Positions 556-50,999 of a stretch of DNA of 64,000 bases are shown here, in pieces; the stretch's first letter is position 1; every line of letters starts with the position of its first letter. The notes under the pieces were generated by a model, which was not told the origin of the DNA, ran no database searches, and worked only from the letters and a program-made list of their open reading frames with translations. The translations under genes were made by a program, and so were the position numbers. The stretch comes from Lachnospira multipara LB2003 (GTDB taxonomy: Bacteria > Bacillota > Clostridia > Lachnospirales > Lachnospiraceae): contig NZ_JNKW01000007.1 of assembly GCF_000702205.1 (NCBI RefSeq), forward strand, positions 1 to 64,000, written 5' to 3'.

Positions 556-591
556 AGTTGTAATACAACTGGTATAAGTTGTCATACAAAT
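556..591 (+). promoter_or_regulatory. Tandem palindromic operator upstream of pckA
   Basis: AGTTGTAATACAACT (556-570) is a perfect 7-1-7 palindrome. A second, 13/15-matching copy AGTTGTCATACAAAT lies at 577-591. The centres (563 and 584) are 21 bp apart, two helical turns, so two dimers would sit on the same DNA face. The same palindrome occurs before leuB at 50963. The regulator is unknown; the TTGTA-TACAA symmetry resembles GntR- or MarR-family sites, but that is only a guess. The pair lies upstream of the -35, a position usual for an activator. Confidence 0.6.
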
Positions 592-614
592 TTTATTTCC
601 TAGTTAGAAATCTA

Positions 615-642
615 TTGATTTTATTAATCTTTTATGTATAAT
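615..642 (+). promoter_or_regulatory. pckA promoter
   Basis: -35 TTGATT (615-620), 16-bp spacer, -10 TATAAT (637-642). Transcription should start near 649, about 48 nt before the pckA start codon. Confidence 0.7.
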
Positions 643-696
643 AGGAATTAAGTTGTTTAAATTCTAACAATATTAAATATAAAGAGAGGTTTTAAT

Positions 697-2310
697 ATGG
701 CATCAATTGATTTAAGCAAGTATGGGATTACAGGAGCTACAGAAGTAGTTTACAACCCATCTTATGAAGAACTTTATAAGGCAGAAACAGATCCAAGTCT
801 TACAGGTTTTGATAAGGGACAAGAAACTGAACTTGGCGCTGTTAATGTTATGACAGGTATCTATACAGGACGTTCTCCTAAAGATAAGTTTATTGTAATG
901 GATGAGAAATCTAAGGATACTGTTTGGTGGACATCAGAAGAATATCCTAACGATAACCATCCAGCTTCACAGGAAGCTTGGGAAGCTTGCAAGAAGTTAG
1001 CAGTTGAAGAACTTTCTGGTAAGAAGTTATATGTAGTTGATGGATTCTGTGGCGCAAATAAGGGTACACGTCTTGCAGTAAGATTCATCATGGAAGTAGC
1101 TTGGCAGGCACATTTTGTAAGAAATATGTTCATTAAGCCAACAGCAGAAGAAGAAGCTAACTTCGAACCTAACTTTGTAATCTACAATGCTTCAAAGGCT
1201 AAGGTTACTAATTACAAGGAATTAGGTCTTAATTCAGAAACAGCTGTTTTATTTAACGTATCTAGCCGTGAACAGGTAATTCTTAATACATGGTACGGTG
1301 GAGAAATGAAGAAGGGTATGTTCTCAATGCAGAACTACTTCTTACCACTTAATGGTATGGCTTCAATGCACTGTTCAGCTAACACAGATATGGAAGGTAA
1401 GCACACAGCAATCTTCTTTGGTCTTTCAGGTACAGGTAAGACAACTCTTTCAACAGATCCTAAGAGATTATTAATCGGTGATGATGAACATGGTTGGGAT
1501 GATAATGGTGTATTCAACCTTGAAGGTGGTTGCTATGCTAAGGTTATCGGTCTTGATAAGGAATCAGAACCAGATATTTACAATGCAATTAAGAGAAATG
1601 CTCTTTTAGAGAATGTTACAGTTGATGCTAATGGTAAGATTGATTTTAATGATAAGAGTGTTACAGAGAATACTCGTGTATCATATCCAATCGATCATAT
1701 TGATAAGATTGCTCAGAAGGTTAATAAGATTTCTTCAGGTCCAGATGCTGATAATGTTATTTTCCTTTCAGCTGATGCTTTCGGAGTACTTCCTCCAGTA
1801 TCTATTCTTACACCAGAGCAGACAAAGTATTATTTCCTTTCAGGATTTACAGCTAAGCTTGCTGGTACAGAAAGAGGAATTACAGAACCTACACCAACAT
1901 TCTCAGCTTGCTTCGGTCAGGCTTTCCTTGAGCTTCACCCAACAAAGTATGCTGAAGAACTTGTAAAGAAGATGGAAAAGAGTGGTGCTAAGGCTTACTT
2001 AGTTAACACAGGTTGGAATGGAACAGGTAAGAGAATTTCAATTAAGGATACTCGTGGTATTATTGATGCAATTCTTTCAGGTGATGTTCTTAAGGCTCCA
2101 ACTAAGAAGATTCCTTACTTCGATTTCGAAGTTCCTACAGAACTTCCAGGTGTTGATACAGGTATCTTAGATCCTAGAGATACATATGCTGATGCAGCTG
2201 AATGGGATAAGAAGGCTAAGGATCTTGCAGAAAGATTTGTTAAGAACTTCAAGAAGTACGAGACAAACGATGCTGGTAAGGCATTAGTTGCAGCTGGTCC
2301 TCAGTTATAA
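697..2310 (+). CDS. pckA: Phosphoenolpyruvate carboxykinase (ATP)
   Basis: This is the ATP-dependent PEP carboxykinase, which interconverts oxaloacetate + ATP and PEP + CO2 + ADP in the cytoplasm. In anaerobes it may run in the CO2-fixing direction. At 537 aa it has the family's usual length. The N-terminal part carries [10 protein letters not shown] (residues ~54-63, oxaloacetate site); the nucleotide site has the P-loop [12 protein letters not shown] (~242-252) followed by GDDEHGW (~260, kinase-2 motif) and a conserved region with [10 protein letters not shown] (~440). The start ATG follows GAGAGG at a normal distance. Codons are strongly biased (AAG, GGT, CTT), as in nifJ, which suggests high expression. 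It is monocistronic, with its own promoter, paired palindromes upstream and a terminator at 2354. Confidence 0.97.
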
Positions 2311-2353
2311 TTTGAATTATATTGTAATATATTGAATTTAATAGTTGTTAGGT

Positions 2354-2388
2354 ATGCCTTGGTCAGATTTGGCCAAGGCATTTTTTAT
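2354..2388 (+). terminator. pckA intrinsic terminator
   Basis: ATGCCTTGG (2354-2362) pairs perfectly with CCAAGGCAT (2373-2381), followed by a T-run. Confidence 0.92.
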
Positions 2389-2527
2389 TTTTTAAAAATT
2401 GGGGGATTGTTTTTTTAAAAAAGTTTTTAAAGGAACAATTTTATTAGATTTTATAAAATGTTTCTTTACTATTGATGGGTAAAATGGTATTCTACCACAG
2501 TAGGATTAAATCTGAAAGGTGATAAAA

Positions 2528-2776
2528 ATGGTAGATAGTCGTAATTTTAAGAACTTTAATAACAAGAATAGTAGAGGAGTATCTGATAATTTAAAGAAGA
2601 ATAAATGGATACCTTTTGTAGTTATTGTTGCATTAGCAATTGCTTTAATTGCATTAAATTATTTTATGATGGACATTTTACAGTGGGCAAATGAGTCAAT
2701 GCAAACAACACCAACAGGAACTGAAGAAAGTTCCACAGAACTTGTAAATTTTGCGCGAGTAATGATTGGATTATAA
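2528..2776 (+). CDS. Small single-pass membrane protein, unknown function
   Basis: The product is 82 aa. I chose ATG 2528 because AAAGGTG (2515-2521) lies 6 nt upstream; a longer in-frame GTG start at 2519 overlaps that ribosome site. The basic, Asn-rich N-terminus (about 30 residues) is followed by one hydrophobic segment (PFVVIVALAIALIALNYFMM, about residues 33-53) and a Thr/Glu/Ser-rich tail. By the positive-inside rule the N-terminus is cytoplasmic and the tail outside. I do not recognise the family. A strong terminator follows at 2819, so it appears to be a single-gene unit between pckA and arcC. Confidence 0.65.
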   Translation: MVDSRNFKNFNNKNSRGVSDNLKKNKWIPFVVIVALAIALIALNYFMMDILQWANESMQTTPTGTEESSTELVNFARVMIGL

Positions 2777-2818
2777 ATATAATCAATTCATGTGAATAAA
2801 TAAAAAATAATAATCATG

Positions 2819-2892
2819 CTGACCTTTTAAAAATTCTTTCTATACTTTTGATTGTATAAAAATTTTTAGAGTTTTTTAAGGTCAGTATTTTT
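2819..2892 (+). terminator. Long intrinsic terminator
   Basis: CTGACCTT (2819-2826) pairs with AAGGTCAG (2878-2885). The stem continues through A/T-rich arms (AAAAATTCT.. against AATTTTTAGAG..), and TATTTTT follows. Confidence 0.8.
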
Positions 2893-3064
2893 AATTTTCA
2901 GACAAAATATAAAAAAATAACTTAGAAATAAATTTTTTTTTGAGAGAATATTTTAAAAAATTAATTGCAAATAACTGACATAATTCCATCTTTATATGAA
3001 AAAAATATCAATCCAAAGAAAAACTATTATGAGAGAAAATGATTATAATGTTTGTGTTTTTTGC

Positions 3065-3093
3065 TTGCACCGGATTTGGGGATAAACTATAAT
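3065..3093 (+). promoter_or_regulatory. arcC promoter
   Basis: -35 TTGCAC (3065-3070), 17-bp spacer, -10 TATAAT (3088-3093). It lies inside the longest possible reading frame of arcC, which supports the downstream start at 3130. The preceding ~170 bases (2893-3064) are very A/T-rich and show no other feature. Confidence 0.72.
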
Positions 3094-3129
3094 GTAAGCA
3101 TAGTTAATAATATTGGGAGGGTCTTATAT

Positions 3130-4068
3130 ATGGATAATAAGAGAGTTGTTGTTGCGCTTGGAAGAAATGCTTTCGGTACAACTTTTAATGAACAAAAAAT
3201 AAATGTTGCTAAGGCAGCTAAAGCTATTGCAGATTTAGTCGAGGATAAGTATCAGGTTGTTGTTACACACAGTAATGGCCCACAGGTTGGTATGATTCAG
3301 ACTGCTATGACAGAATATGCTAGATTAGAGCCTGAGGATAGAACTGTAGCTCCAATGTCCGTATGTGGCGCTATGAGCGAGGGTTATATAGGATATGATT
3401 TACAGAATGCAATACGTGAGGAATTGCTAAATAGAGGTATTTATAAGACAGTTTCAACGGTTATAACACAGGTTAGAGTTGATCCTTTTGACGAGGCTTT
3501 TTCAAACCCTACTAAGGTTATTGGTAGATATATGACTAAGGAAGAGGCTGAAGCTGAGGAAGAGAAGGGAAATCATGTAATTGAGGAAGAACCTGGTAGA
3601 TTTAGAAGAATCATTGCAGCACCAATGCCAATAGATATTTACGAGATTGATGCTATTAGAGCACTTCTTGATGCAGGACAGGTTGTTATTGCTGCAGGTG
3701 GTGGCGGAATTCCTGTATTACAGCAAGGAACACATCTAAAGGGTGCTTCAGCTATTATTGAGAAGGACTACACAGCAGCTAAATTAGCAGAATTTACAGG
3801 AGCTAAGACACTTTTATTCTTAACAGCTGCAGACAAGCTTAAGATTGGTATTGATACAGACAATGAAGAAGAAGTAGATGATATTAAGGCTGAGGCTTTA
3901 ATTAAGCACATAAAGGAAGGCAATTTCCCAGCTATTACTACTCTTCCAAAAGTAGATGCATCTGTAAGATTTGTAACAGCAATTGAGGATTCTAAGGCTA
4001 TTATTGCTAATCTTGAGAAGGCAAGAGAAGCTGTTAATGGCAAGTCAGGCACAACAATTACAGCATAG
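3130..4068 (+). CDS. arcC: Carbamate kinase
   Basis: The enzyme transfers phosphate between carbamoyl phosphate and ADP, yielding ATP in fermentative catabolism of arginine, citrulline or purine derivatives. It is 312 aa, the usual size, of the amino-acid-kinase fold. Visible motifs are an N-terminal VVVALGRNAFG (the family's GGNA loop, here GRNA), THSNGPQVG (~residue 46), AAGGGGIPV (~188) and KDYTAAKLAE. ATG 3130 is preceded by TTGGGAGGG; an in-frame ATG at 3052 would put the promoter inside the gene and was rejected. No arginine deiminase or carbamoyltransferase gene is adjacent, so the source of carbamoyl phosphate is not shown here. The stop codon lies in the first unit of a 26-bp tandem repeat. 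Confidence 0.93.
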   Translation: MDNKRVVVALGRNAFGTTFNEQKINVAKAAKAIADLVEDKYQVVVTHSNGPQVGMIQTAMTEYARLEPEDRTVAPMSVCGAMSEGYIGYDLQNAIREELLNRGIYKTVSTVITQVRVDPFDEAFSNPTKVIGRYMTKEEAEAEEEKGNHVIEEEPGRFRRIIAAPMPIDIYEIDAIRALLDAGQVVIAAGGGGIPVLQQGTHLKGASAIIEKDYTAAKLAEFTGAKTLLFLTAADKLKIGIDTDNEEEVDDIKAEALIKHIKEGNFPAITTLPKVDASVRFVTAIEDSKAIIANLEKAREAVNGKSGTTITA

Positions 4069-4140
4069 CAGCTAAGATAAATATTAAGGCATAGAAGTTA
4101 AGATAAATGTTAAGGCATAGAAGTTTAGATAATTCTATGG
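4064..4140 (+). repeat. 26-bp tandem repeat, 3 units, overlapping the arcC stop
   Basis: Units at 4064-4089, 4090-4115 and 4116-4140 share CATAGAAGTTAAGATAAA and TTAAGG. The TAG of unit 1 is the arcC stop codon, so the array grew from the gene's end into the 3' UTR. Confidence 0.85.
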
Positions 4141-4187
4141 ATAATAAATACAAAAATTATATTTAACAATTAATTTTAGAAAAAATA

Positions 4188-4236
4188 AAGTCATGTATTA
4201 GATTTAAGATAGATTTAATACATGGCTTATTTTTTT
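4188..4236 (+). terminator. arcC intrinsic terminator
   Basis: AAGTCATGTATTA (4188-4200) pairs with TAATACATGGCTT (4216-4228) with one wobble, followed by ATTTTTTT. Confidence 0.85.
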
Positions 4237-4574
4237 GTGCAAAAAATTGTAGATGATTGAATTCTAGAGATTTTTTATAAACTGCTATTTTTTAAAGTTT
4301 CCCTGAAAAAATTAAAGAATTTAGCTTATATAAAAAACTCATTTTTATTTTGCAAAAACTTTTCATGGAAGAAATACAGATAAATAGTAAACTAGAAATG
4401 GAAACTGTTACCATCGGAATAAAAACACTACTTTACAAAGGGTTTTTATTTTGATAATATGCATTTGCACTCGCTTGTTTGACACGATATCTAATTACTA
4501 AACTGAAGTGAACTATTAATAAGCCAAGTATAAGGATTTTATTTTCTAAAAAGATTAGTAACAAAAAAGCGTGG

Positions 4575-4776
4575 TAAACAAAAGAGAATATTAAACAAAG
4601 GAGAATGTTAAACAAAGGAGAGTAATAAACAAAGGAGAATGTTAAACAAAGGAGAGTAATAAACAAAGGAGAGTAATAAACAAAGGAGAGTAATAAACAA
4701 AGGAGAGTAATAAACGAAAGAGAGTAATAAACAAAAGAGAATATTAAACAAAAAAGTATTAAACAAAAGAAAGCGA
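4575..4776 (+). repeat. 17-bp minisatellite, about 12 units
   Basis: A head-to-tail array with consensus TAAACAAAGGAGAGTAA. Ten exact-length units start at 4575, 4592, 4609, 4626, 4643, 4660, 4677, 4694, 4711 and 4728, with two degenerate units after (4745, 4760). Units at 4643, 4660, 4677 and 4694 are identical; those at 4592 and 4626 end in AATGT; the outer ones (4575, 4711, 4728) have AAAGAGA instead of AAGGAGA. Degeneration towards both ends and identity in the middle is typical of expansion by slippage or unequal exchange. 17 is not a multiple of 3 and TAA recurs, so it is non-coding. The surrounding gene-free sequence (4237-4574, 4777-5022) shows no gene that I can support. Confidence 0.95.
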
Positions 4777-5022
4777 TTAAGAATAGAAACTAAGAATTAA
4801 TTGGATCTGTTTTAAAAGATTAGCTAAGAAACATATGATTTTACCTAGTTTACAAAAGAGTGATTTGTAAGTTTACGAAAGAAAAAGCAATATAGAGTAT
4901 TCGTGAAAGGTTATGAATTGTAAAGAATACAATTTTTAGAAATTATAAATACAGAATACAGTTATTGTGGGGAAAACTTAATATTTTAAGAAGTAACAAA
5001 AAATTAAATCTGTTGGGTATAT

Positions 5023-5067
5023 GTGTAAATCTCCGCAATTAGATCGATTTATACGCAGATTTAGCAC
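5023..5067 (+). promoter_or_regulatory. Stem-loop in the 5' leader of the 135-aa gene
   Basis: GTGTAAATCT..GC (5023 onward) can pair with GCAGATTTAGCAC (5055-5067) with small bulges. The structure ends about 12 nt before the GGGAGGT ribosome site. It may modulate translation; its function is unknown. Confidence 0.4.
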
Positions 5068-5093
5068 AAGATAAACGTCGGGAGGTAGCAAAG

Positions 5094-5501
5094 ATGCTTT
5101 ATTTAGGAAGTAATGACTCTGTTATAAGTAACTTCAACATTACTAAGATGTTTGAGGATTTTTTCTATAATATTTTCAATATTAAGGATATGTGGAATAG
5201 TATAACTTTCGATGAAATTGAGAATATGATGTGTGGGCATGAGATGATTATAGTTTCATTAGATGAATCTGTAATTTATAGTGAAAAGGGTAGAAAATAC
5301 CTGGATATGGTTCGTAAACTCTTAAAGCGTAATGCTATTCGAGTTAGATTTTTAATGTATGATTATGAAGAATTACCTAAAGCTTTATCATGGATTGTAG
5401 ATCGTTACGGTAACTTCGTTCAGATTTTAAGAAGCAAGGATGATCCATTTGATGTATTTTTTAAATACACATTTCCAAATGTTTTATTAAGTGAGGGTTA
5501 A
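5094..5501 (+). CDS. Conserved-looking hypothetical protein (135 aa)
   Basis: The ATG is preceded by CGGGAGGTAGC, a strong ribosome site, so the gene is very likely real. The protein is soluble, acidic and aromatic-rich with no signal peptide or membrane segment. The order of predicted elements (EMIIVSLDESVIYSEKG, then KRNAIRVRFLMYDYEELPKA) suggests alternating beta strands and helices in the second half, but I recognise no family. It is transcribed alone: about 860 bp of repeat-rich gene-free DNA precede it after the arcC terminator, and a strong terminator follows. No function is proposed. Confidence 0.7.
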   Translation: MLYLGSNDSVISNFNITKMFEDFFYNIFNIKDMWNSITFDEIENMMCGHEMIIVSLDESVIYSEKGRKYLDMVRKLLKRNAIRVRFLMYDYEELPKALSWIVDRYGNFVQILRSKDDPFDVFFKYTFPNVLLSEG

Positions 5502-5524
5502 AAAGAGATAGATTATTAAATATT

Positions 5525-5570
5525 CATGGCTTTAATGGGGTTTAATCCTGTGTTAAAGCCATGATTTTTG
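5525..5570 (+). terminator. Intrinsic terminator
   Basis: CATGGCTTTAA (5525-5535) pairs perfectly with TTAAAGCCATG (5553-5563), followed by ATTTTTG. Confidence 0.88.
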
Positions 5571-5576
5571 TTTTAC

Positions 5577-5605
5577 TTGCATTTAGTAAGGGAAACCACT
5601 ATAAT
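5577..5605 (+). promoter_or_regulatory. Promoter of the ABC-F gene
   Basis: -35 TTGCAT (5577-5582), 17-bp spacer, -10 TATAAT (5600-5605). It leaves a leader of about 80 nt before ATG 5694. Confidence 0.72.
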
Positions 5606-5693
5606 TATTATGTTTGTGCTTTAATGGCGCATTGACTGTTAATTTTGATAAGAAGAGATATTTAGATTTCTCTATTTGGAGGTATTAAATTAG

Positions 5694-7331
5694 ATGATTA
5701 GTGCGAATAACGTAACATTAAGAATTGGTAAAAAAGCTCTTTTTGAAGATGTTAATATTAAGTTTACAGAAGGCAACTGTTATGGTCTTATTGGAGCTAA
5801 TGGTGCTGGTAAGTCAACTTTCCTTAAGATATTAACTGGTCAGATTGAACCTAGTAAAGGTGATGTTTCAATTACACCAGGCCAGAGACTATCATTCTTA
5901 GAGCAGGATCACTTTAAGTATGATGAATATTCTGTACTTGATACAGTAATTATGGGTAATGCAAGACTTTATGAAATCATGAAGGAGAAGGAAGCAATTT
6001 ATGCTAAGGAAGACTTTACTGAAGAAGATGGTAATAAGGCTTCTGAATTAGAGGCAGAATTTGCTGATATGAATGGTTGGGAAGCTGAATCAGATGCTGC
6101 TCAGTTACTTAATGGTTTAGGTGTTGAAACTGAGAACCATTATAAGATGATGAGCGAACTTGATGGTTCATTAAAGGTTAAAGTCTTACTTGCTAAGGCT
6201 TTATTTGGTAACCCTGATATCTTACTTCTTGATGAGCCTACTAACCACTTAGATTTAGATGCTATTGCTTGGTTAGAAGAATTCTTAATTAACTTTGATA
6301 ATACTGTTATTGTTGTTTCACATGATAGATATTTCCTTAATAAGGTTTGTACACATATTGCTGATATCGATTATGCTAAGATTCAGTTATATGCTGGTAA
6401 CTACGATTTCTGGTATGAATCAAGCCAGTTGCTTATTAAGCAGATGAAGGAAGCTAACAAGAAGAAGGAAGAGAAGATTAAGGAATTACAGGACTTTATT
6501 CAGAGATTCTCTGCTAATGCTTCTAAGTCTAAGCAGGCTACATCTAGAAAGAGAGCATTAGAGAAGATCGAGCTTGATGAAATCAGACCTTCTTCAAGAA
6601 AGTACCCATATATTGACTTTAGACCACAAAGAGAAATCGGTAATGAAGTTTTACAGGTTGAGGGTATTTCTAAGACTATTGATGGCGTTAAGGTTTTAGA
6701 TAATGTATCATTTATCGTTAACCATGATGATAAGATTGCTTTTGTAGGTTCTAATGAGCTTGCTACAACAACACTTTTTAATATTATTACAGGTCAGATG
6801 GAACCAGATGAAGGTAGCTATAAGTGGGGTGTTACAACATCTCAGGGATACTTCCCTAAGGATTCAGCTGCTGAATTTAATAGAGAAGATACAATTGTTG
6901 AATGGCTTACACAGTATTCACCAGATCCAGATCCAACATATGTTAGAGGATTCCTTGGAAGAATGTTATTTGCTGGTGATGATGGTGTTAAGAAGGTTAA
7001 GGTATTATCAGGTGGTGAGAAGGTAAGATGTTTACTTTCTAAGATGATGATTATGGGTTGCAACTGTTTAGTATTTGATGATCCTACTAACCACTTAGAT
7101 ATGGAATCAATCACTGCACTTAACAATGCATTAATTAAGTTTAGTGGTGTTGTAATCTTTACTTCACACGATCATCAGTTTATTCAGACTACAGCTAACA
7201 GAATTATGGAAATTGTTCCATCAGGTCAGTTAATTGATAAGATTACAACTTATGATGAATACCTTGAAAGTGATGAAATGGCTAGAAAGCGTCAGGGATT
7301 TGCAGATGCTGCATCAGAGGATGAAGACTAA
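5694..7331 (+). CDS. ABC-F family ATPase (YkpA/YbiT-like) with a degenerate second ATP site
   Basis: This is a 545-aa soluble protein with two ABC ATPase domains and no membrane segments, the ABC-F layout of ribosome-binding translation factors. Domain 1 has a canonical P-loop GANGAGKS (~34-41) and Walker B LLLDEPTNHLD (~178-188), but its signature is SELDGSLKVK instead of LSGG-Q/E. The ~80-residue charged linker (~240-315) matches the P-site tRNA interaction motif region. Domain 2 has GSNELATTTLF (~351-361) where a P-loop should be (no GK-S/T), a canonical signature LSGGEKVR (~437-444), and LVFDDPTNHLD, with Asp in place of the catalytic Glu. Site 1 (P-loop 1 + signature 2) is therefore intact and site 2 degenerate. 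A ribosome-associated role is inferred from family. Confidence 0.88.
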   Translation: MISANNVTLRIGKKALFEDVNIKFTEGNCYGLIGANGAGKSTFLKILTGQIEPSKGDVSITPGQRLSFLEQDHFKYDEYSVLDTVIMGNARLYEIMKEKEAIYAKEDFTEEDGNKASELEAEFADMNGWEAESDAAQLLNGLGVETENHYKMMSELDGSLKVKVLLAKALFGNPDILLLDEPTNHLDLDAIAWLEEFLINFDNTVIVVSHDRYFLNKVCTHIADIDYAKIQLYAGNYDFWYESSQLLIKQMKEANKKKEEKIKELQDFIQRFSANASKSKQATSRKRALEKIELDEIRPSSRKYPYIDFRPQREIGNEVLQVEGISKTIDGVKVLDNVSFIVNHDDKIAFVGSNELATTTLFNIITGQMEPDEGSYKWGVTTSQGYFPKDSAAEFNREDTIVEWLTQYSPDPDPTYVRGFLGRMLFAGDDGVKKVKVLSGGEKVRCLLSKMMIMGCNCLVFDDPTNHLDMESITALNNALIKFSGVVIFTSHDHQFIQTTANRIMEIVPSGQLIDKITTYDEYLESDEMARKRQGFADAASEDED

Positions 7332-7437
7332 TTAATATTAGATTTTTAAATGCAGTGACTTAAAGCGATGCAGCTTTTGAATAATAAGTAAAGCTGATTT
7401 AGAATAAGCACTTTACAAATAATATATTATAAACTTT

Positions 7438-7480
7438 AGGAAGTGAGATGCATATTTGCATTTCGCTTCCTTGTTTTACT
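7438..7480 (+). terminator. Intrinsic terminator after the ABC-F gene
   Basis: AGGAAGTGAGATGCA (7438-7452) pairs with TGCATTTCGCTTCCT (7457-7471) with two wobbles, followed by TGTTTTACTTTT. Confidence 0.82.
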
Positions 7481-7500
7481 TTTACTCTATATGTTATAAT
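7471..7500 (+). promoter_or_regulatory. ftsK promoter
   Basis: -35 TTGTTT (7471-7476), 18-bp spacer, -10 TATAAT (7495-7500). It overlaps the T-rich tail of the preceding terminator. Confidence 0.6.
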
Positions 7501-7536
7501 TAATAAGTTTAAAGGATATTTACGGGAGGGAGCTAA

Positions 7537-10291: not shown

Positions 10292-10337
10292 CAACATGCG
10301 TTTAAAAAACGTATCTTTTAATTTTTGGAGGATTTGT

Positions 10338-42916: not shown

Positions 42917-42976
42917 TAAAGACTTTAATTTAATAGATAATAACTAGGGATTAGTTATTAAGAACAGTTGGTACGC

Positions 42977-43013: not shown

Positions 43014-43020
43014 ATCGATT

Positions 43021-43048
43021 TTGTTAATTTATGCTTATATGCTATACT
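43021..43048 (+). promoter_or_regulatory. Promoter of the HNH-like/kinase pair
   Basis: -35 TTGTTA (43021-43026), 16-bp spacer, -10 TATACT (43043-43048). Confidence 0.6.
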
Positions 43049-43119
43049 GTTGTTAAGAACAAAAATTGCTATATATTAAGAATTAAATATAGCTGACCAA
43101 TGATTAATTGGAGGTATTT

Positions 43120-43344
43120 ATGGATTTTTTTGAAGATATGAGCTGTTGTGGTCATAATGGAATGGAAGTAAAGTGGTCAGATACCTGTAATATCTGTGGT
43201 AAGAAACTTGTAGGTACAGATAGAGTTGTAGATTATATTGTTCCTTTAAGCGAGGGTGGTACAACTAATGTAGATAATCAATTTTATGTTTGCAGAGATT
43301 GCAAATATAAAAGACAAAGTAAGGAAATGGCTATCAAAAGATAG
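43120..43344 (+). CDS. HNH-fold zinc protein lacking the catalytic His
   Basis: This is a 74-aa protein. TCNICGKKL (CxxC) is followed by VVDYIVPLSEGGTTNVDNQF and YVCRDCKYKRQ (CxxC). Spacing and context match the HNH endonuclease family pattern CxxC ... DHIxPLSxGG...DN...LCxxCN. Here the invariant His after Asp is Tyr (DY instead of DH), so metal-dependent nuclease activity is doubtful. ATG 43120 follows TTGGAGG; the TTG of that site was rejected as start. It begins with an acidic FFEDMSCCG segment with two further Cys. The hybrid kinase gene begins 15 nt later, so they form a pair. Confidence 0.75.
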   Translation: MDFFEDMSCCGHNGMEVKWSDTCNICGKKLVGTDRVVDYIVPLSEGGTTNVDNQFYVCRDCKYKRQSKEMAIKR

Positions 43345-43359
43345 TTTGTTGGAGGAAAA

Positions 43360-44994
43360 ATGAAGGAATACCGTAAGGAAATAGTAAATGCTATTTTTAC
43401 AAATTATATAGTGGTTTACGAAATTGATTTGGATAAAGACTTAATTAGTTTGGTTTATAAGGACGAAGGAGAAGATCTAAGCAATTTTTTAGATGAGGGA
43501 AGATATTCATTAATAAATTCAAAATATGCGATTAATCAAATTGAGAAAGAATATTCAAGAGAATTTGAAAGACGCGGTGCTATTGATAATTTAAGAAGAG
43601 AATTAAAGGAAAAAATTAGTTTTAAATTTAGTTTTGCAGGATATGACGGAAAGGTTAGAACTGTAGAATATAGAAGGGTAGAAGCACTAGATAATGATGA
43701 TATAAGAAAGGTTTTAATGTCATTTTGCAGACTAGAAGATGACAGAGCTAGTGCTTTTAAATTAAAAAAAGAAAGACAAAAACATAGGGATTTACTTGAA
43801 GAAGAATTAAATAAGATAAAAGAAATTAGTCAGTCAAAATCAAGGTTTTTATCTAATATGTCCCATGATTTAAGAACTCCTATAAGTTCTATGATGGGAT
43901 ATATAAACTTAGCCAATATGCACCTTGATAATAGGGAATTAGTTGAAGATTATCTAAAAAAGATAAACACAAATTGCGACCAATTACTTGGAATAATCGA
44001 TGATGTACTTAGTATTTCTCAAATTGAAAGTGGTAGAGTAACAGTAGATGAGCAAAAGTTTAGCATAAATGAAGTGGTTGATGAAATTGTAGCTTTAATT
44101 ACTCCCCTTGCTAATAAAAAAGAGCAGGAATTAATTGTTGAGAAATCATATGAGAATGATGAAGTATTAATGGATAAGATTAAGGTGGAAAAAATTCTTA
44201 TAAATGTACTTAATAATGCTATTAAATACACTCATAGATGCGGAAAAATCATATTTAGAATTTTGGCTAAAGGGGACGTGGCTGATGGTAATTTAGGCTA
44301 TAGATTTGAAATTGAAGACAATGGCGTTGGAATAGATAAAAGCTTTTTAGAGCGAATTTTTGAGCCTTTTGAAAGGGAGAATGATAGAGAAATCGCTCAA
44401 ATTCAAGGAACAGGCCTAGGACTATCAATTACAAAGGAAATCATAAAGGTACTTGATGGTAAGATTGATATACAAAGCGTGAAATACGAGGGTACTAAGG
44501 TTGTAATAGACTTAAGCTTTAAGCCATTTAGACAGGATATTTTAGCTAAATATGAGGATTTTAATATTAGAAATCTAAGAAGAGCAGAAGATATTGCTAA
44601 TCAGAGAACATTCAACAAGAAGAGATTTTTAATTGTGGATGATAATGAGGCTAATTTAGAGATATTATCTACTTTTTTACAGGATTTAGGAGCAACAATT
44701 GATATTGCAACTAACGGAATGGATGCTATTAAGATAATTAGTGATAGTGATATATATCAGTATAATGCTGTATTAATGGATATTAAGATGCCTATTCTTG
44801 ATGGAGATGAGGCAACTAGGGAAATTAGAAAGCTAGATAATAGAACTATTGCTTCCATTCCAATTATTGGAATTAGCGCCAATGTTTATCCTATGGATAA
44901 GGAAAGAGCAATGGATGCTGGAATGGATGCATACATTGTAAAACCTGTTAATGTAGATGAACTATTAAGAGTTCTAAAGGATATAATGCTTTAA
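43360..44994 (+). CDS. Soluble hybrid sensor histidine kinase with receiver domain
   Basis: This is a 544-aa signalling protein without membrane segments. N-terminal region (~1-130): a PAS-like sensor, weakly recognised. A coiled linker leads to the dimerisation/phosphoacceptor motif RFLSNMSHDLRTPISSMMGY (His ~170) and an ATPase domain with N box (ILINVLNNAIKYTH, ~282), DNGVGID (~325) and GTGLGLSI (~351). The C-terminal receiver domain (~425-543) has VDDNEAN, phosphoacceptor Asp in VLMDIKMPILDG, a Ser/Thr switch at ISAN and Lys in YIVKPVN. No output response regulator is adjacent. The input signal is unknown. Confidence 0.9.
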   Translation: MKEYRKEIVNAIFTNYIVVYEIDLDKDLISLVYKDEGEDLSNFLDEGRYSLINSKYAINQIEKEYSREFERRGAIDNLRRELKEKISFKFSFAGYDGKVRTVEYRRVEALDNDDIRKVLMSFCRLEDDRASAFKLKKERQKHRDLLEEELNKIKEISQSKSRFLSNMSHDLRTPISSMMGYINLANMHLDNRELVEDYLKKINTNCDQLLGIIDDVLSISQIESGRVTVDEQKFSINEVVDEIVALITPLANKKEQELIVEKSYENDEVLMDKIKVEKILINVLNNAIKYTHRCGKIIFRILAKGDVADGNLGYRFEIEDNGVGIDKSFLERIFEPFERENDREIAQIQGTGLGLSITKEIIKVLDGKIDIQSVKYEGTKVVIDLSFKPFRQDILAKYEDFNIRNLRRAEDIANQRTFNKKRFLIVDDNEANLEILSTFLQDLGATIDIATNGMDAIKIISDSDIYQYNAVLMDIKMPILDGDEATREIRKLDNRTIASIPIIGISANVYPMDKERAMDAGMDAYIVKPVNVDELLRVLKDIML

Positions 44995-44999
44995 AATAA

Positions 45000-45038
45000 A
45001 AACCCTAATTGATTATAATAATCAATTAGGGTTTATTT
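45000..45038. terminator. Bidirectional terminator between the kinase and DnaK-like genes
   Basis: A perfect 15-bp stem (45000-45014 with 45020-45034; arms AAACCCTAATTGATT / AATCAATTAGGGTTT) around ATAAT, with A/T tails on both sides. Confidence 0.9.
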
Positions 45039-46785
45039 AAAATCTGTATGTATTTTTTATACTTGTTGTTATATCAGATAATTTGTTTATTATTTTAGTG
45101 TCTAATTTATCCAATTTGCATTTTGAGATGCATCGCTTTAATTCATAGGTCTTGTGCTTTAATTCTCTATAGGTGCTTTTATCAAGCTCTTTTTTATGGG
45201 CTTTAATATAGCTACTATACTGATTTAATGTTTGCACTGAATCATTATATATATCAATTAATTTTTGATATTCTTCGTCCTTTTTTCCAAAAATATTAGC
45301 TTCCCATTTTGCTTTTTCAATTTCTTCATCTGACATGGTGTTATTAGCAGTAATGGTTATTGATTGTTTATTGCCGGTTCCAAGGTCCTTGGCAGAAACA
45401 CTAAGTATACCGTTGGCGTCTATATCAAAGGTAACCTCAATTTGAGGTACGCCACTTAAAGCTTTTTTAATTCCTGAAAGTCTAAAATTTCCAATTAGTT
45501 TATTGTCCCTTGTAAACTTTCTCTCCCCTTGAAAAACCTTAATATCTACAGAGGTCTGGAAAGCACTTGCAGTTGTAAAAATTTGACTATGTCTAGTTGG
45601 TATAGTTGTATTTCGCTCAATTAATCTATTGGAAATACCACCTATTGTCTCTATGGATAAAGATAGAGGGGTAACATCCATAAGTAGAATTTGTGAGGCT
45701 CTAGAGCTTGGAGTTAGCTGATTATTTAGCTTTCCTCCTAATATAGCAGCACCAAGAGCTACACATTCATCAGGATTAATATTTCTTGTAGGCTCTTGTT
45801 TCATAACCTGTCTTAGGGTATCAACTACAATTGGCATACGAGTTGACCCACCAACTAATATTACAGAATCAATGTCTTCTTTTTTTAGTCTGGCATCTTT
45901 AAGGGCATTTTCTACAGGTATAAGGGTTTTATCAACTAAGTCCTTAGTAAGTTCGTTAAATTTGGCTCTTGTAAGGTTATATTCTAGATGATATGGTACA
46001 CCTTTAACCTGGGTAATAAAGGGAATATTAATTGTAAAGCTTAGGGCACAGGATAGTACTTTCTTAGCATTCTCAACCTCTTCTTTAAGTCTAGTTAAGG
46101 CTACATAATCCTTAGATAAGTTAATTCCTGTGGATTCGTTAAATTCCTTTATAAGAAATTGACAAATTCTTTCATCAAAATCATCTCCGCCAAGGCGGTT
46201 ATTTCCTGATGTTGCTAGTACTTCAATGGTATCATCATCAATTTCAATAATAGACACATCAAAGGTGCCTCCTCCTAAGTCATAAACAAGGATTTTTTGT
46301 GGCTTACCATTGTCAAGACCGTAGGCTAGGGCAGCAGCTGTAGGTTCATTTATAATTCGAATTACATTTAGTCCTGCAATTTTTCCAGCATCCTTAGTTG
46401 CAGTTCTTTGTGCATCGTTAAAGTATGCAGGAACAGTAATTACAGCATCTGTTACCTCTTCGCCTAAATAGCTTTCTGCATCTTCCTTAAGCTTCATAAG
46501 AATATATGCTGATATTTCCTGTGGTGAGAAGGTTTTTGAACCTATCTTTTTTTGATGGTTAGTTCCCATATATCGTTTTATTGAAAAAATTGTGTTTTCC
46601 GGATTAAGAGCTGCTTGTCTTTTTGCAAGATCACCAACTAAGCGTTCATTTTGCTTAGTAAAAGCAACTACAGAAGGGGTTGTTTGATAACCTTCTTGAT
46701 TGGTTATAACCACTGGGTAATCCCCTCTTGTAACGGCAACACAACTGTTTGTTGTACCTAAATCAATGCCAATAACTTTTCCCAT
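45037..46785 (-). CDS. DnaK paralogue (Hsp70 family), short C-terminus
   Basis: This is a 582-aa Hsp70. The nucleotide-binding domain is complete: [13 protein letters not shown] (~5-17), [19 protein letters not shown] (~140-158), [13 protein letters not shown] (~190) and GGSTRMPIV (~330). The substrate domain is present ([14 protein letters not shown], ~385). The C-terminal lid is short and Lys/Ser/Thr-rich, without the usual Gly/Glu-rich tail. No grpE, dnaJ or hrcA is nearby, so it is a lone paralogue and the main dnaK is likely elsewhere. The start ATG 46785 follows AAAGGAAAGG; the upstream in-frame ATG at 46827 lies before that site. Confidence 0.88.
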
Positions 46786-47006
46786 AAATAGCCTTTCCTT
46801 TGTTTTTACTAAGTTATATTTTAGCATGTAATTTTCAATTTAAAATGCATAAACAATAATAAATAATAAAAAAAGTATAAATTTAGCTTATGAGAATTTA
46901 TTGTTTATATTTAGCTTGAAATATGGTAATTTATTATGGTAATAAATGTGTTTTTAACTAATAGTTAAAGCTTGTAGGAAGTCAGATTGACTTGTGGGAG
47001 GTAAAA

Positions 47007-48107
47007 TTGGCAGGATCAATATTAGGTAATATTTTTAAAATATCCACATGGGGTGAATCTCATGGCAAAGCAGTTGGAGTAGTTATTGATGGATGTCCGG
47101 CAGGATTGGATTTATGTGAAGATGATATTCAAACTTTTCTTGATAGAAGAAAGCCTGGAACATCGCAGTTTACAACACCAAGAAAAGAAAATGATGAGGT
47201 GGAGATTCTTTCAGGGGTTTTTGAAGGTAAGACAACGGGAACACCTATTTCATTGCTTGTTTATAATAAAGAGCAAAGATCAATAGATTATAGTGAAATA
47301 GCCTCATATTATAGACCAGGACATGCGGATTATACATTTGATGCTAAATATGGATTTAGAGATTATAGAGGTGGTGGAAGAAGCTCTGGTAGAGAAACTA
47401 TTGGAAGAGTGGCAGCAGGCGCCATTGCCATAAAGATTCTTGATAGACTTGGCATTAGAATTAATGCTTATTCTAAGGAAATTGGCGGCATTTCAATAGA
47501 CTATTCTAGATTTGATGCAAAGGAATGTAATAATAATCCTTTTTATATGCCAGATAGTGTGGCAGCAGCAGCTATAGAGGATTTTGCTGCGCAAAAAAGA
47601 GCAGAAGGTGATTCAGTTGGTGGCGTAATTGAATGCGTTATTAAAGGAGTTATGCCTGGAGTTGGAGAAACGGTTTTTGAAAAGCTTGATGCTAATTTAG
47701 CTAAGGCTATTATGTCCATTGGAGCTTGTAAGGGCTTTGAAATAGGTGATGGTTTTGAAGTTTCAAAATCCCTTGGAAGTACTAATAATGACAGTTTTAC
47801 AGTTAATGATGGAAAGCTAGATAAGAAGACTAATCATGCAGGAGGCATTCTTGGTGGAATGGCTGATGGTAGTGACATTGTATTTAGAGCAGCCTTTAAG
47901 CCAACACCTTCAATTTCTAAGCTTCAAAGAACAGTAAATAAGTCAATGGAAGAAATAGATGTAAGTATTAAGGGGCGTCATGACCCAATGGTAGTGCCAA
48001 GAGCTGTGGTTGTGGTAGAATCAATGGCAGCAATTACACTTGTGGACTTGATTTTTATGAACATGACCTCTAAAATGGATGAGATTGTATCATTTTATAA
48101 AAGATAA
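47007..48107 (+). CDS. aroC: Chorismate synthase
   Basis: The last shikimate-pathway enzyme converts EPSP to chorismate with reduced FMN. The start is TTG 47007, right after TGGGAGGT, giving MAGSILGNIFKISTWGESHG, the family's N-terminus; the frame's earlier TTG (46992) overlaps the ribosome site. It is 366 aa. Conserved stretches: GESHGKAVGVVIDGCPAG (~16-33), DRRKPGTSQF (~45), YRPGHADYTFDAKYGFRDYR (~99-118) and RDYRGGGRSSGRET (~115-128). Other aro genes are not adjacent. Confidence 0.95.
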   Translation: MAGSILGNIFKISTWGESHGKAVGVVIDGCPAGLDLCEDDIQTFLDRRKPGTSQFTTPRKENDEVEILSGVFEGKTTGTPISLLVYNKEQRSIDYSEIASYYRPGHADYTFDAKYGFRDYRGGGRSSGRETIGRVAAGAIAIKILDRLGIRINAYSKEIGGISIDYSRFDAKECNNNPFYMPDSVAAAAIEDFAAQKRAEGDSVGGVIECVIKGVMPGVGETVFEKLDANLAKAIMSIGACKGFEIGDGFEVSKSLGSTNNDSFTVNDGKLDKKTNHAGGILGGMADGSDIVFRAAFKPTPSISKLQRTVNKSMEEIDVSIKGRHDPMVVPRAVVVVESMAAITLVDLIFMNMTSKMDEIVSFYKR

Positions 48108-48145
48108 AAATATAAAAAGCACAATAATGAAAGTAGGAGAAAAAG

Positions 48146-49282
48146 ATGTATAAGATTTTAGCAACATCTGGAAATGCCAAAAGAGCTGAATTCCAAACAG
48201 TTCATGGTACAGTTCAGACACCTGTATTTATGAATGTTGGTACAGTGGCTGCCATTAAAGGAGCAGTGGCAACTACAGATTTGAAAGAAATAGACACACA
48301 GATAGAATTGTCTAACACATATCACCTTCACGTACGTACAGGAGATAAATTAATTAAGGAGTTAGGTGGACTTCATAAATTTATGAATTGGGATAAGCCA
48401 ATTCTTACAGATTCAGGCGGATTCCAGGTATTTTCTTTAGCTGGATTACGTAAGATTAAGGAAGAGGGAGTTACTTTCCAGTCACATATTGATGGACATA
48501 AGATTTTTATGGGACCTGAAGAAAGTATGCAGATACAGTCAAACCTTGGTTCTACTATTGCCATGGCCTTTGATGAATGTGCACCAGCTAAGGCTGATAG
48601 AGATTATGTTGAAAAATCCGTAGCAAGAACAACTCGCTGGCTTAATCGTTGTAAAAAGGAAATGGATAGATTAAATTCATTAGAAGATACAGTAAACCCA
48701 CATCAGATGCTTTTTGGTATTAATCAGGGTGCAGTTTATGATGATATTAGAATTGAGCATGCTAAAAAAATCGCAGAAATGGACTTAGATGGATATGCAG
48801 TAGGAGGTCTTGCAGTAGGTGAGACTCATGAGGAAATGTATCATGTACTTGATGTAACAGTTCCTTATTTACCTAAGGATAAGCCAACTTATCTTATGGG
48901 TGTTGGTACACCGGCTAATATTCTTGAAGCTGTTGATAGAGGTATTGATTTCTTTGATTGTGTTTACCCTTCAAGAAATGGTAGACATGGTCATGTATAT
49001 ACTAAATTTGGTAAGATTAATCTCTTTAATGCTAAGTACGAGAAGGATTTAAAGCCAATTGAAGAAGGCTGTAATTGTCCTGCATGTCGTAATTATTCAA
49101 GAGCTTATATAAGACACCTACTTAAGGCTAAGGAAATGCTTGGTATGAGACTTTGTGTATTACATAACCTTTATTTCTATAATCATTTAATGACAGATAT
49201 AAGAGCTGCTATTGAAGCAGGTAATTATAAGAGCTTTAAGGATGAGAGATTATATCTTCTTAAGACATACGATAAGAAATAA
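48146..49282 (+). CDS. tgt: Queuine tRNA-ribosyltransferase
   Basis: Tgt exchanges guanine 34 for preQ1 in GUN-anticodon tRNAs. It is 378 aa. TNTYHL-type segment SNTYHLHVRTGD (~53), TDSGGFQVFSL (~88, catalytic Asp), GGLAVGET (~217) and the zinc site CNCPACRNYSRAYIRHLLKA with a later His (~309-340: Cys, Cys, Cys and His). ATG follows GTAGGAGAAAAAG. The usual partner queA is not upstream. yajC follows, as in many bacteria. Confidence 0.96.
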   Translation: MYKILATSGNAKRAEFQTVHGTVQTPVFMNVGTVAAIKGAVATTDLKEIDTQIELSNTYHLHVRTGDKLIKELGGLHKFMNWDKPILTDSGGFQVFSLAGLRKIKEEGVTFQSHIDGHKIFMGPEESMQIQSNLGSTIAMAFDECAPAKADRDYVEKSVARTTRWLNRCKKEMDRLNSLEDTVNPHQMLFGINQGAVYDDIRIEHAKKIAEMDLDGYAVGGLAVGETHEEMYHVLDVTVPYLPKDKPTYLMGVGTPANILEAVDRGIDFFDCVYPSRNGRHGHVYTKFGKINLFNAKYEKDLKPIEEGCNCPACRNYSRAYIRHLLKAKEMLGMRLCVLHNLYFYNHLMTDIRAAIEAGNYKSFKDERLYLLKTYDKK

Positions 49283-49390
49283 CTTGTAATTTATTATTAT
49301 TTAATAGACATATAATGGATTTTGGTTTATTATTTTTAAAGTATGTTAGGGATTAGACCAATCATATTAAGCAAAATATAGGAGGATTTT

Positions 49391-49675
49391 ATGAATCAGG
49401 CAATTATTATGATTATTTATATTGTTGCTATCGTGGTTATGATGTATTTCTTAGCTATTAGACCACAGAGAAAGCAGCAAAAAGAACAGGAAATGCTTTT
49501 AGAATCTATGGCAGTAGGAGATGCAGTTTTAACAACAAGCGGCTTTTATGGTACAATAGTTAGCATTTTCGAAGATGATGTTATTGTTGAATTTGGTGGT
49601 AACAAGAATTGCAGAATAACAGTTCAGAAGAAGGCTATTGCTCAGGTTGAAAAGACTGATAATTCAGAAAACTAA
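49391..49675 (+). CDS. yajC: Preprotein translocase subunit YajC
   Basis: The 94-aa accessory subunit of the Sec translocon has an N-terminal membrane helix (IIMIIYIVAIVVMMYFLAIRPQ, ~4-25) ending in the family's AIRPQRKQQKEQ motif, followed by GDAVLTTSGFYGTIVSI (~43) and VEFGGNKNCRITV. The ribosome site ATAGGAGG precedes ATG. secD/secF do not follow here; a terminator does. Confidence 0.95.
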   Translation: MNQAIIMIIYIVAIVVMMYFLAIRPQRKQQKEQEMLLESMAVGDAVLTTSGFYGTIVSIFEDDVIVEFGGNKNCRITVQKKAIAQVEKTDNSEN

Positions 49676-49689
49676 TTTTTCTTAAATAG

Positions 49690-49727
49690 AAAAGACTTAA
49701 AACTTATTAAAGTTTTAAGTCTTTTTT
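49690..49727 (+). terminator. yajC intrinsic terminator
   Basis: AAAAGACTTAAAACTT (49690-49705) pairs with AAGTTTTAAGTCTTTT (49710-49725) around ATTA, with T-run. Confidence 0.93.
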
Positions 49728-49795
49728 TAATGCAAATAATTTTTACTTATGGTATAATTATCTAAAATTATTGTGATTTTTATTTTGGGGGAATA

Positions 49796-50905
49796 ATGAA
49801 AAGTAAAGTAAAAGCTTTATTTAAGCTAAATGCAATCATTTTTTTATATGCATTTATAGTATGTTTAGTTGGTGTATGCATTTTATCAATAAGCTTTATT
49901 AACAGAAGTAATTCCTTAATCAAAAGCACTAGTTCAAGTATACAAAATAATATATCTTTAGGAGATCTAGAGGAATTAAACGAATATGTAGGGACAATTT
50001 TCTCCTCAAGAAATATTTCCCTTGGTGAAAATGAAGTAAATAAGGACCATGTATCAGCTTTTGGTCATTTAAAGGAATATGAAGAATATAAAACTATACA
50101 AAGGGAAATAGCTTTAATTAAGGAATCTAATAGGGATATTTACGACTTAGGAATTCTCTATATTGATATAGATAATAATAGAATGGTTTATTTAGTAGAT
50201 TCAGGGGCTTATGATTTGGGCTTTTGCAGAGGCCTTAGTTACGATTATTATACTAAGTTGGTTCTAAAAAAGAATGCATCAATAGGTAAGGTAAATAATA
50301 AGCTCTGTATATATAAAGGTGGCAATTTAACAAACGAAAAGTCTGTTGTAGTTGGCACTGTTACAATTTCAGTATCAACAGCTAGATGGATTGCTAATGT
50401 AAGAATTTTTATTATTGCCTTAGTTATTATTTGGCTTATAACATGTCTGATTTGTTCAATTTGTTATGTATATATACCGGATTTTTATAGAAATGCCTAT
50501 GCTTATTTAAAGGCAACAAAGGTTATATATAAGGCAAGGAAGGAAAGAAAGGAAAGACTTAAAGAACAAAGGCAGCAAACAAAGAATGTTAAAAAAGAAA
50601 GTTTGGATGGATTTAAAGAAGAACTTGAAAAAAACGACATTGACGAAAAAGACGTTGAAGAAAAAGGACATAAAGAAGAAATAGAAAGTAATGAAGAAAA
50701 AGGACATGAAAAAATAGAAAGTATTGAAGAAAAAGGACATGAAGAAGAAATAGAAAGCATTGAAGAAAAGGGACTTGAAAAAGAAGAGGAAAAATTAGAA
50801 GAAACAGACAGCGCAGATGATAAACCTAAGTCTGTTAAGAGGGAAGTTAAAGAAGGGGAGGAAGACCATCCGGTTATGGACTGGATAGTGGATCAATTAA
50901 AGTAA
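49796..50905 (+). CDS. Membrane protein with extracytoplasmic domain and repetitive acidic tail
   Basis: The product is 369 aa. ATG follows GGGGGAAT; an extended -10 TGGTATAAT lies at 49750-49758. The first membrane helix is at ~12-32 (NAIIFLYAFIVCLVGVCILS). An extracellular region (~33-200) with a NISLG repeat follows, then a second helix (~203-228, IFIIALVIIWLITCLICSIC). This two-helix, outside-domain layout resembles Cache-type sensors without an output domain. The cytoplasmic tail (~240-369) is Lys/Glu-rich, with about four degenerate 12-residue repeats (EEKGHEEEIESI). I do not recognise the family. No partner gene is visible. Confidence 0.75.
   Translation: MKSKVKALFKLNAIIFLYAFIVCLVGVCILSISFINRSNSLIKSTSSSIQNNISLGDLEELNEYVGTIFSSRNISLGENEVNKDHVSAFGHLKEYEEYKTIQREIALIKESNRDIYDLGILYIDIDNNRMVYLVDSGAYDLGFCRGLSYDYYTKLVLKKNASIGKVNNKLCIYKGGNLTNEKSVVVGTVTISVSTARWIANVRIFIIALVIIWLITCLICSICYVYIPDFYRNAYAYLKATKVIYKARKERKERLKEQRQQTKNVKKESLDGFKEELEKNDIDEKDVEEKGHKEEIESNEEKGHEKIESIEEKGHEEEIESIEEKGLEKEEEKLEETDSADDKPKSVKREVKEGEEDHPVMDWIVDQLK
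50658..50800 (+). repeat. Coding repeat (about 36 bp x 4) in the tail of the membrane protein
   Basis: Degenerate units encode EEKGHKEEIESN, EEKGHEKIESI, EEKGHEEEIESI and EEKGLEKEEEKL. One unit is 33 bp, so copy number and unit length vary in frame. Confidence 0.85.
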
Positions 50906-50912
50906 ATTAAAC

Positions 50913-50960
50913 TTGGTCAAATAGGAACCCTTTAGGTTTCCTGTTTGGCCTTTTTAATTT
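50913..50960 (+). terminator. Intrinsic terminator before leuB
   Basis: GGTCAAATAGGAACC pairs with GGTTTCCTGTTTGGCC (wobbles) around a short loop, followed by TTTTTAATTTTT. Confidence 0.82.
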
Positions 50961-50962
50961 TT

Positions 50963-50999
50963 GGTTGTAATACAACTTGACGAATGTGGTTAGACAACT
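50963..50999 (+). promoter_or_regulatory. Tandem palindromic operator overlapping the leuB promoter
   Basis: GGTTGTAATACAACT (50963-50977) repeats the pckA palindrome (14/15). A weaker copy TGTGGTTAGACAACT (11/15) lies at 50985-50999; centres are 22 bp apart. Site 1 abuts the -35 and site 2 ends on the -10, so binding here should block RNA polymerase (repression), in contrast to the upstream site at pckA. Confidence 0.6.

Follow-up and report, generated by a model that had tools for sequence, protein, structure and literature searches.

Tandem palindromes as probable operators of a FadR-subfamily GntR regulator of branched-chain amino acid genes in Lachnospira multipara

Paired Palindromes Upstream of pckA and leuB

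The DNA analyzed here, hereafter called the window, comprises the first 64 kb of contig C6 in the 2.58-Mb genome of Lachnospira multipara LB2003 (handle G000). Within it, the genes for phosphoenolpyruvate carboxykinase (pckA) and 3-isopropylmalate dehydrogenase (leuB) are each preceded by a tandem pair of 15-bp palindromes, and these pairs, together with the protein that may bind them, are the subject of this analysis (table 1). A previous sequence-only reading had described both pairs, and we could reproduce its coordinates, mismatch counts and centre spacings. At pckA the first site (556-570, AGTTGTAATACAACT) is a perfect palindrome with 0 mismatches and the second (577-591) has 2, their centres being 21 bp apart; at leuB the first site (50963-50977) has 1 mismatch and the weaker copy (50985-50999) has 4, with a centre spacing of 22 bp. 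Exact matches to GTTGTANTACAAC in the whole 2.58 Mb are confined to the two sites of the window.

The paired architecture had been considered unlikely to arise by chance, which our shuffle analysis bears out: tandem pairs with a spacing of 20-23 bp and no more than 2 total mismatches to GTTGTNNNACAAC occur twice in the real window and in 0/100 dinucleotide shuffles (a half scored as 4 stands for at least 4 mismatches in this test, of which totals of 2 or less alone were used). For the lone 15-mer, allowing up to 3 mismatches, the window shows no enrichment, with 7 copies found against 5.7 expected; it was therefore dropped as a significant signal, leaving the tandem arrangement alone as significant. 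The pckA pair is intergenic, lies 106 bp upstream of the start codon and, with 1 mismatch in total, ranks among the best pairs of the genome.

Table 1. Putative operators, predicted promoters and genes at the pckA and leuB loci of the window
Feature	Position	Strand	Basis
Putative pckA operator 1, GTTGTAATACAAC, exact palindrome	557..569	+	
Putative pckA operator 2, GTTGTCATACAAA, centre 21 bp downstream of operator 1	578..590	+	
Predicted pckA promoter	615..642	+	Consensus match: -35 TTGATT 615-620, spacer 16, -10 TATAAT 637-642
pckA, phosphoenolpyruvate carboxykinase (ATP)	697..2310	+	TIGR00224 equivalog, 794.9 bits, cut-off 590
Putative leuB operator 1, GTTGTAATACAAC, abuts predicted -35	50964..50976	+	
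Putative leuB operator 2, GTGGTTAGACAAC, within predicted -35/-10 spacer, 22 bp from operator 1	50986..50998	+	
Predicted leuB promoter	50977..51004	+	Consensus match: -35 TTGACG 50977-50982, spacer 16, -10 TATAAT 50999-51004
leuB, 3-isopropylmalate dehydrogenase	51099..52184	+	TIGR00169 equivalog, 506.4 bits, cut-off 353
ilvD, dihydroxy-acid dehydratase, next gene of presumed leuB operon	52208..53872	+	PF00920, PF24877; operon presumed from 23-bp gap
Acetolactate synthase large subunit (ilvB-like)	54056..55762	+	Three TPP-enzyme domains above cut-off

The acetolactate synthase gene is probably also part of the leuB operon, but its ilvB-like name and its operon membership are both deductions of ours.

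Further Pairs before Genes of Branched-Chain Amino Acid Metabolism

In a genome scan for the palindrome, which the sequence-only reading had proposed, places with no more than 2 mismatches number 164, against 115 for the reversed control pattern, and of the 13 places with one mismatch two correspond to tandem pairs, before cstA and ilvC, with centres 21 bp apart. From the four pairs at pckA, leuB, ilvC and cstA we then built a sequence-only profile (R1), with which the best 150 of 2101 first-look candidates in the genome were scored. At E<=10 this returned, among the candidates scored, 16 distinct places, namely the 4 training pairs and 12 others, the top five of which lie, in rank order, before gdhA, ilvE, the citrate synthase gene, ilvA and leuC; a weaker place precedes a hypB-hypB-gntR operon. 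The presence of pairs before the citrate synthase and glutamate dehydrogenase genes supports the link that had been suggested between oxaloacetate or central metabolism and branched-chain amino acids.

The products of pckA, leuB, ilvC, gdhA, ilvE, ilvA and leuC pass their NCBIfam cut-offs, as does citrate synthase with a subfamily model; CstA has Pfam support and scores far below the cut-off of the NCBIfam model for the CstA pyruvate/proton symporter. A leuD-like ORF downstream of leuC was recognized by eye, and many of the ilvN, ilvD, leuA, leuD, tRNA synthetase, trpE, trpD and HypA names used for the loci below were also assigned by eye.

Operator Motif and Candidate Regulator

The alignment of 16 pairs gives the consensus GTTGT-N3-ACAAC, the centre of which is mostly flanked by GTA or GTC on one side and TAC or GAC on the other. 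The GT...AC core is invariant or nearly so in all pairs except in the second copy at the citrate synthase gene. These GTM-N-KAC cores fit NyGTM-N0-1-KACNy, the operator consensus that the text of a 2015 survey of GntR motifs (PMC4494728) gives for the FadR subfamily of GntR regulators, with a usual distance of 3 nt between GT and AC. The same text notes that many GntR sites have additional, weaker boxes at 7-12 nt from their centre, and its table row for Clostridia ('1, 14, 53') is taken here as indicating one FadR-subfamily regulator; the string 'ilv' is absent from the main text of the survey (PMC4494728).

Our candidate for the regulator is a 236-aa protein encoded on the minus strand at about 15580-16290 of contig C9 in G000, by the third gene of the hypB-hypB-gntR operon, two genes away from ilvC. 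Its N-terminal part is a GntR winged helix-turn-helix (PF00392, 71 bits vs cut-off 27) and its C-terminal part an all-helical FCD ligand domain (PF07729, 69.8 bits vs cut-off 24.3), the helices of which are present in the structural model. Among the matched NCBIfam families listed (25 of 28), every score falls below its cut-off, the closest listed profile being LldR with 107 bits vs a cut-off of 311; identity with LldR, PdhR, NanR, GlcC or ExuR was rejected on these grounds. The metal site of FCD domains consists of D-X3-H plus two additional His. In the alignment of 15 orthologues, 14 of which have 58-93% identity to the first, E152, H156, H200 and H222 are invariant (15/15); Glu in E152-X3-H156 occupies the position of Asp in the aligned LldR and NanR chains. 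The AlphaFold single-chain model of the protein has a mean pLDDT of 84 and a pTM of 0.59; NanR, DhdR, VanR, FadR and CGL2915, the structure of which we take to be LldR, were among the matches of a fold search with this model, with TM-scores of only 0.38-0.56, probably because the domain orientation is uncertain.

The two consecutive genes preceding gntR in its operon (L126 5821-7207) encode HypB/CobW-type GTPases, and similar ORFs lie upstream of gntR in G002 and G003 (L178, L179); a metal-loading link between such GTPases and the FCD domain is only a thought. The gene between gntR and ilvC in G000 (L126 3631-4953) codes for a CheX-like plus response-regulator protein, with similar ORFs in G002 and G003.

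Co-occurrence of Regulator and Sites across Genomes

All the scans across genomes scored the best 150 candidates per genome (R1 and permissive scans) or the best 16 (R2 family scan, which had stricter filters). In the 22 genomes of the genus, an orthologue of gntR with 60-100% identity is found in G000, G002, G003, G010 and G011, and R1 matches at E<=0.01 are present in 5/5 of these carriers vs 1/17 of the others (G019, where the match lies inside an ORF). In the 397 genomes of the family, an orthologue of at least 58% identity is present in 12, while homologues of 37-47% occur in 15 more at E<=1e-40. We then scanned what we take, from the agreement of handles and counts, to be the same 397 genomes with a model trained on genus pairs only (R2, matches at E<=0.001). 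R2 matches 6/397 genomes, all among the 12 carriers: two within the genus (G000, G002) and four outside it (G046, G187, G306, G350). Outside the genus this amounts to 4/10 carriers vs 0/384 others (Fisher p about 2e-7 if genomes are independent).

A permissive scan of 13 carriers, combined with direct reading, detected pairs with 0-5 mismatches before ilvC in G003, G011, G350, G046, G187, G279, G306, G076, G180 and G358; neither G010, in which the ilvC start is off its contig, nor G354, in which ilvC was not seen, could be read. In the 14 regulator-free genus genomes with a readable ilvC, the best pair within 400 bp has 7-9 mismatches, and an ilvN-like frame ends upstream of ilvC in 13/14 (by eye). 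Moreover, gntR is adjacent to ilvC or one gene from it in 10 carriers (G010, G011, G046, G180, G279, G076, G236, G358, G187 and G306); in G306 an ilvN-like ORF flanks gntR on the opposite side, and in G187 a 2-mismatch tandem pair is located at the start of gntR itself. In G350 the gene is not so placed, and the pair is still found before ilvC, at another place. ORFs resembling ilvC or ilvD are also neighbours of gntR at L220, L221 and L225, which carry more distant homologues (by eye).

Taken together, the further target pairs, the candidate protein and the co-occurrence across genomes support, at the level of sequence, the earlier idea of one common regulator with a real regulon. The tandem palindromes probably are operators of a FadR-subfamily GntR regulator that controls a branched-chain amino acid regulon, and the co-occurrence and gene linkage point to the ilvC-linked GntR as the protein that would bind them. 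Its class is known and the regulon appears to be new. The sites, targets, architecture and co-occurrence with the regulator gene can be read from the sequences themselves; binding by this protein, repression or activation and the ligand are deduced.

Weighing the Evidence

Several points weigh against this interpretation. Of the 12 other places found with R1 in G000, 5 are inside ORFs (C1:486888, C2:451263, C9:42591, C2:421183 and C2:431337), and C1:338571, an intergenic pair with 5 mismatches upstream of an ORF resembling ribosomal protein L19, is probably due to chance. The operon of the regulator itself has one perfect site (GTTGTCAGACAAC), 40 bp before the longest form of its first ORF, with a mere half site beside it. 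The genomes of one genus are related, so the co-occurrence within the genus does not represent 22 independent cases, and absence of sites in a genome is not exhaustive because it is limited to the candidates scored. Outside the genus, 6/10 carriers fall short of the strict R2 threshold; the ilvC pairs of G180, G279, G076 and G358 reach only E 0.0016-0.05 in the permissive scan, with 3-5 mismatches; G236 lacks an ilvC pair and has, at the start of gntR, only a pair with 7 mismatches; and the sole match of G354 is inside an ORF. Strong targets are only 1 in G010 and 2 in G011, both fragmented assemblies.

Further points concern pckA. The sequence-only reading had proposed that conservation be checked in relatives, and the leuB pair is indeed kept in G002 and G003, again with centres 22 bp apart, but pckA does not hold as a conserved member of the regulon. 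The best 80 of 586 relatives (identity 82-91%) were surveyed with 500 bp of upstream DNA in 76 loci and 12-339 bp in 4, and a site with no more than 2 mismatches was found upstream of pckA in 0/80. Only degenerate ATTTTTAAACAAC and GATGTCATACCAA occupy the position of the pair in G002 and G003, the PckA of which is 99% and 96% identical, and no pair lies upstream of pckA in G010 and G011. It follows that pckA, with a site that is strong in this genome only, is at best a lineage-specific member. The pair might even be a chance or decaying element, with the regulon restricted to leuB and the other branched-chain genes, and its offset from the ilvE pair relative to the predicted promoter, about 18 bp, is not a whole number of helical turns. 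We nevertheless consider this rather unlikely, given that the pckA pair combines so few mismatches with the 21-bp spacing, that comparable pairs are missing from the shuffled windows and that it is intergenic; the degenerate pair retained at the same place in sister species looks like a site that is changing, not like an accident.

The sites could also belong to another transcription factor, the GntR gene near ilvC being a passenger. Our survey of GntR-domain proteins in G000 found 6 above the family cut-off, including a second GntR+FCD protein (L127, 223 aa), and binding by the ilvC-linked one is predicted from sequence comparison. This alternative is improbable: it is the orthologue of the ilvC-linked protein that tracks the motif across genomes, in many genera its gene has ilvC, ilvN or ilvD nearby, and the motif fits the FadR-type consensus as presented in the survey text (PMC4494728). 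L127 was rejected as the regulator since frames of the same length are matched also in G004, G006 and G018, which have no motif match (from the match list, with no tree).

That the co-regulation reflects RNA control by a T-box or attenuator, with the palindromes as incidental hairpins, is hardly credible: T-boxes are common in the genus (RF00230 matches in 22/22 genomes), but none of the 8 matches in G000 falls on the sites reported here for the ilv and leu genes, cstA, gdhA or pckA, the motif follows the GntR gene across genomes, and leuB operator 2 lies in the predicted -35/-10 spacer and both ilvE copies upstream of the predicted -35, so that transcripts from the predicted promoters would not contain them.

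Promoter Geometry and Proposed Mechanism

For each pair, positions are given relative to the promoter that best matches the consensus in the interval from -70 to +90 around it, and refer to predicted, not mapped, starts. In 10/10 carriers scored (G002 and G187 were not scored), the start of the ilvC pair is at about -5 or -8; the pair spans -5 to +28 in G000, G003, G011, G046, G306 and G180, -5 to +29 in G350, -5 to +27 in G279 and -8 to +25 in G358 and G076. The leuB pair extends from about -47 to -13 in G000 and from -49 to -15 in G003. Pairs at +3 to +36 are found for cstA (G000, G003), leuC and ilvA (both G000), and the citrate synthase pair lies at +10 to +43 (G000, G003). Positions further upstream are occupied by the pairs of ilvE (-74 to -41 or -75 to -42 in four genomes), gdhA (-96 to -63 in G000 and G003, with weak promoter matches) and pckA (about -92 to -59 in G000). 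At leuB and pckA this geometry matches that of the sequence-only reading, including the repressor-like arrangement at leuB.

We propose that two GntR dimers would bind side by side on one face of the DNA, about two helical turns apart. The proposed targets are leuB-ilvD-ilvB, ilvC, ilvE, ilvA, leuC(D), cstA, gdhA, the citrate synthase gene and pckA, together with, more weakly, the regulator's own hypB-hypB-gntR operon. At ilvC, leuB, leuC, ilvA, cstA and the citrate synthase gene the bound protein should repress, because the pair covers the predicted promoter or transcript start. At ilvE, gdhA and pckA the pair is upstream of the predicted -35, a position that would suit activation or looping; for pckA, activation is suggested by this position alone. 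A common activator phase for these three pairs was discarded, the phase comparison having given none for pckA. The ligand, to judge from the protein family, is likely a carboxylic acid of the pathway (2-keto, hydroxy or dicarboxylic), which might be 2-isopropylmalate or 2-ketoisovalerate.

Comparison with Known Systems

The candidate shares with FadR-subfamily regulators such as PdhR, LldR, GlcC, NanR and DhdR the combination of winged-helix GntR and FCD domains, as well as palindromic operators in which 3 nt separate GT from AC; it differs from them in lying far below the named equivalog cut-offs and in having targets in branched-chain biosynthesis and oxaloacetate/glutamate metabolism. IlvY of enteric bacteria is a LysR-type activator with its gene beside ilvC and tandem operators near the ilvC promoter. 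The system described here would share with it the placement of gene and operators and the metabolic control of the pathway, whereas a GntR/FCD protein would sit at a repressor position on ilvC. CodY of low-GC Gram-positives has, like the regulator proposed here, a broad branched-chain amino acid regulon that reaches nitrogen and carbon metabolism, but it belongs to a different protein family and its box differs from the operator reported here. T-box riboswitches act at the RNA level and sense tRNA; they have no match at our sites, yet in genus relatives without the regulator they do precede cstA.

Synthesis of branched-chain amino acids by Lachnospiraceae of the gut is relevant to host metabolism, and its control in these bacteria appears to be little described. 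A literature search, which did not cover RegPrecise, turned up no paper that describes branched-chain amino acid biosynthesis in Lachnospiraceae as a GntR regulon. If our interpretation is right, it names a candidate gene, defines an operator pair of 34-35 bp and yields about ten targets, and it provides a case of regulator exchange at cstA, which has a T-box without GntR and an operator pair with it; this exchange would independently tie CstA to branched-chain amino acid status.

T-Boxes and a Probable Regulator Exchange at cstA

Annotations of CstA often name it a carbon-starvation or pyruvate transporter. In 10/10 regulator-free genus genomes with CstA at least 57% identical (G001, G004, G006, G007, G009, G013, G014, G016, G017 and G021), a T-box lies about 75-250 bp before cstA; 6/10 of these reach the gathering score, those of G001, G007, G013 and G016 being below it. 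Absence of the regulator is less certain in G009 and G006, the assemblies of which are 59% and 78% complete. In contrast, the carriers with CstA at least 96% identical (G000, G002 and G003) have an operator pair with 2 mismatches at cstA and no T-box there. No T-box adjoins cstA in the five genomes with a distant CstA (42-45%), including the carrier G010, and four genus genomes have no CstA match; the five distant loci and G007 were left out of the pair scoring at cstA. The specifier, read by eye in 6/10 cstA T-boxes (L276 1501-1806 and L278 1501-1765 are among the ten loci), is AUC (Ile) in G021, G009, G014 and G017 and CUC (Leu) in G004 and G006.

The exchange of T-box for operator is not general, since T-boxes are retained at leuA-like genes whether or not a genome has the regulator (for instance G002, G003, G011 and G004). 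The T-boxes of G000 precede trpE, trpD-like and tRNA synthetase ORFs (by eye), and T-box control of the genes of the window was rejected in the absence of RF00230 matches at their sites.

A broader proposal, which we advance tentatively and with somewhat more doubt than conviction, is that the GntR/FCD protein is a dual-acting, so far undescribed master switch of branched-chain synthesis in scattered Lachnospiraceae, which would sense an acid of the pathway, couple Leu/Ile/Val synthesis to oxaloacetate, glutamate and CstA transport, and have replaced the T-box at shared targets such as cstA. If this is true, control of the same gene by branched-chain amino acids would act through RNA in one species and through a protein in its sister. 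Our literature search found no paper combining T-box, cstA, branched-chain and isoleucine.

Additional Sites and Neighboring Features

Matches of G003 at C8 and C4 lie before leuC (6 mismatches) and ilvA (3 mismatches). Matches inside ORFs in other genomes (G019:C3:248354, G180:C39, G279:C2:48402, G010:C188, G354:C94 and G350:C3:168971) were not counted as targets, nor was that of G358:C39, which straddles an ORF end.

In G002 a pair lies just past the consensus promoter of a trpD-like gene (L256 1505-1538), with a weaker counterpart in G003 (L311 1249-1282); a trpD-like ORF of G000 (L359) has a T-box upstream instead. The carrier G046 has an exact GTTGTATTACAAC followed 22 bp on by a weaker copy (a 3-mismatch pair, L302 1503-1537) just before an Lrp-like ORF, possibly a further regulator in the circuit. 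A 4-mismatch pair precedes a reductase-like ORF in G180 (L301), and a single perfect site is present in G350:C2 (L315).

Within the window, two near-identical terminator-like hairpins with a T run are arranged head to tail at 438-535, between the tRNA-Trp gene (364-435) and pckA. The ORF upstream of leuB (49796-50905) starts with a hydrophobic stretch and has a Glu/Lys-rich tail of repeated EKGHEEEIESIE-like units.

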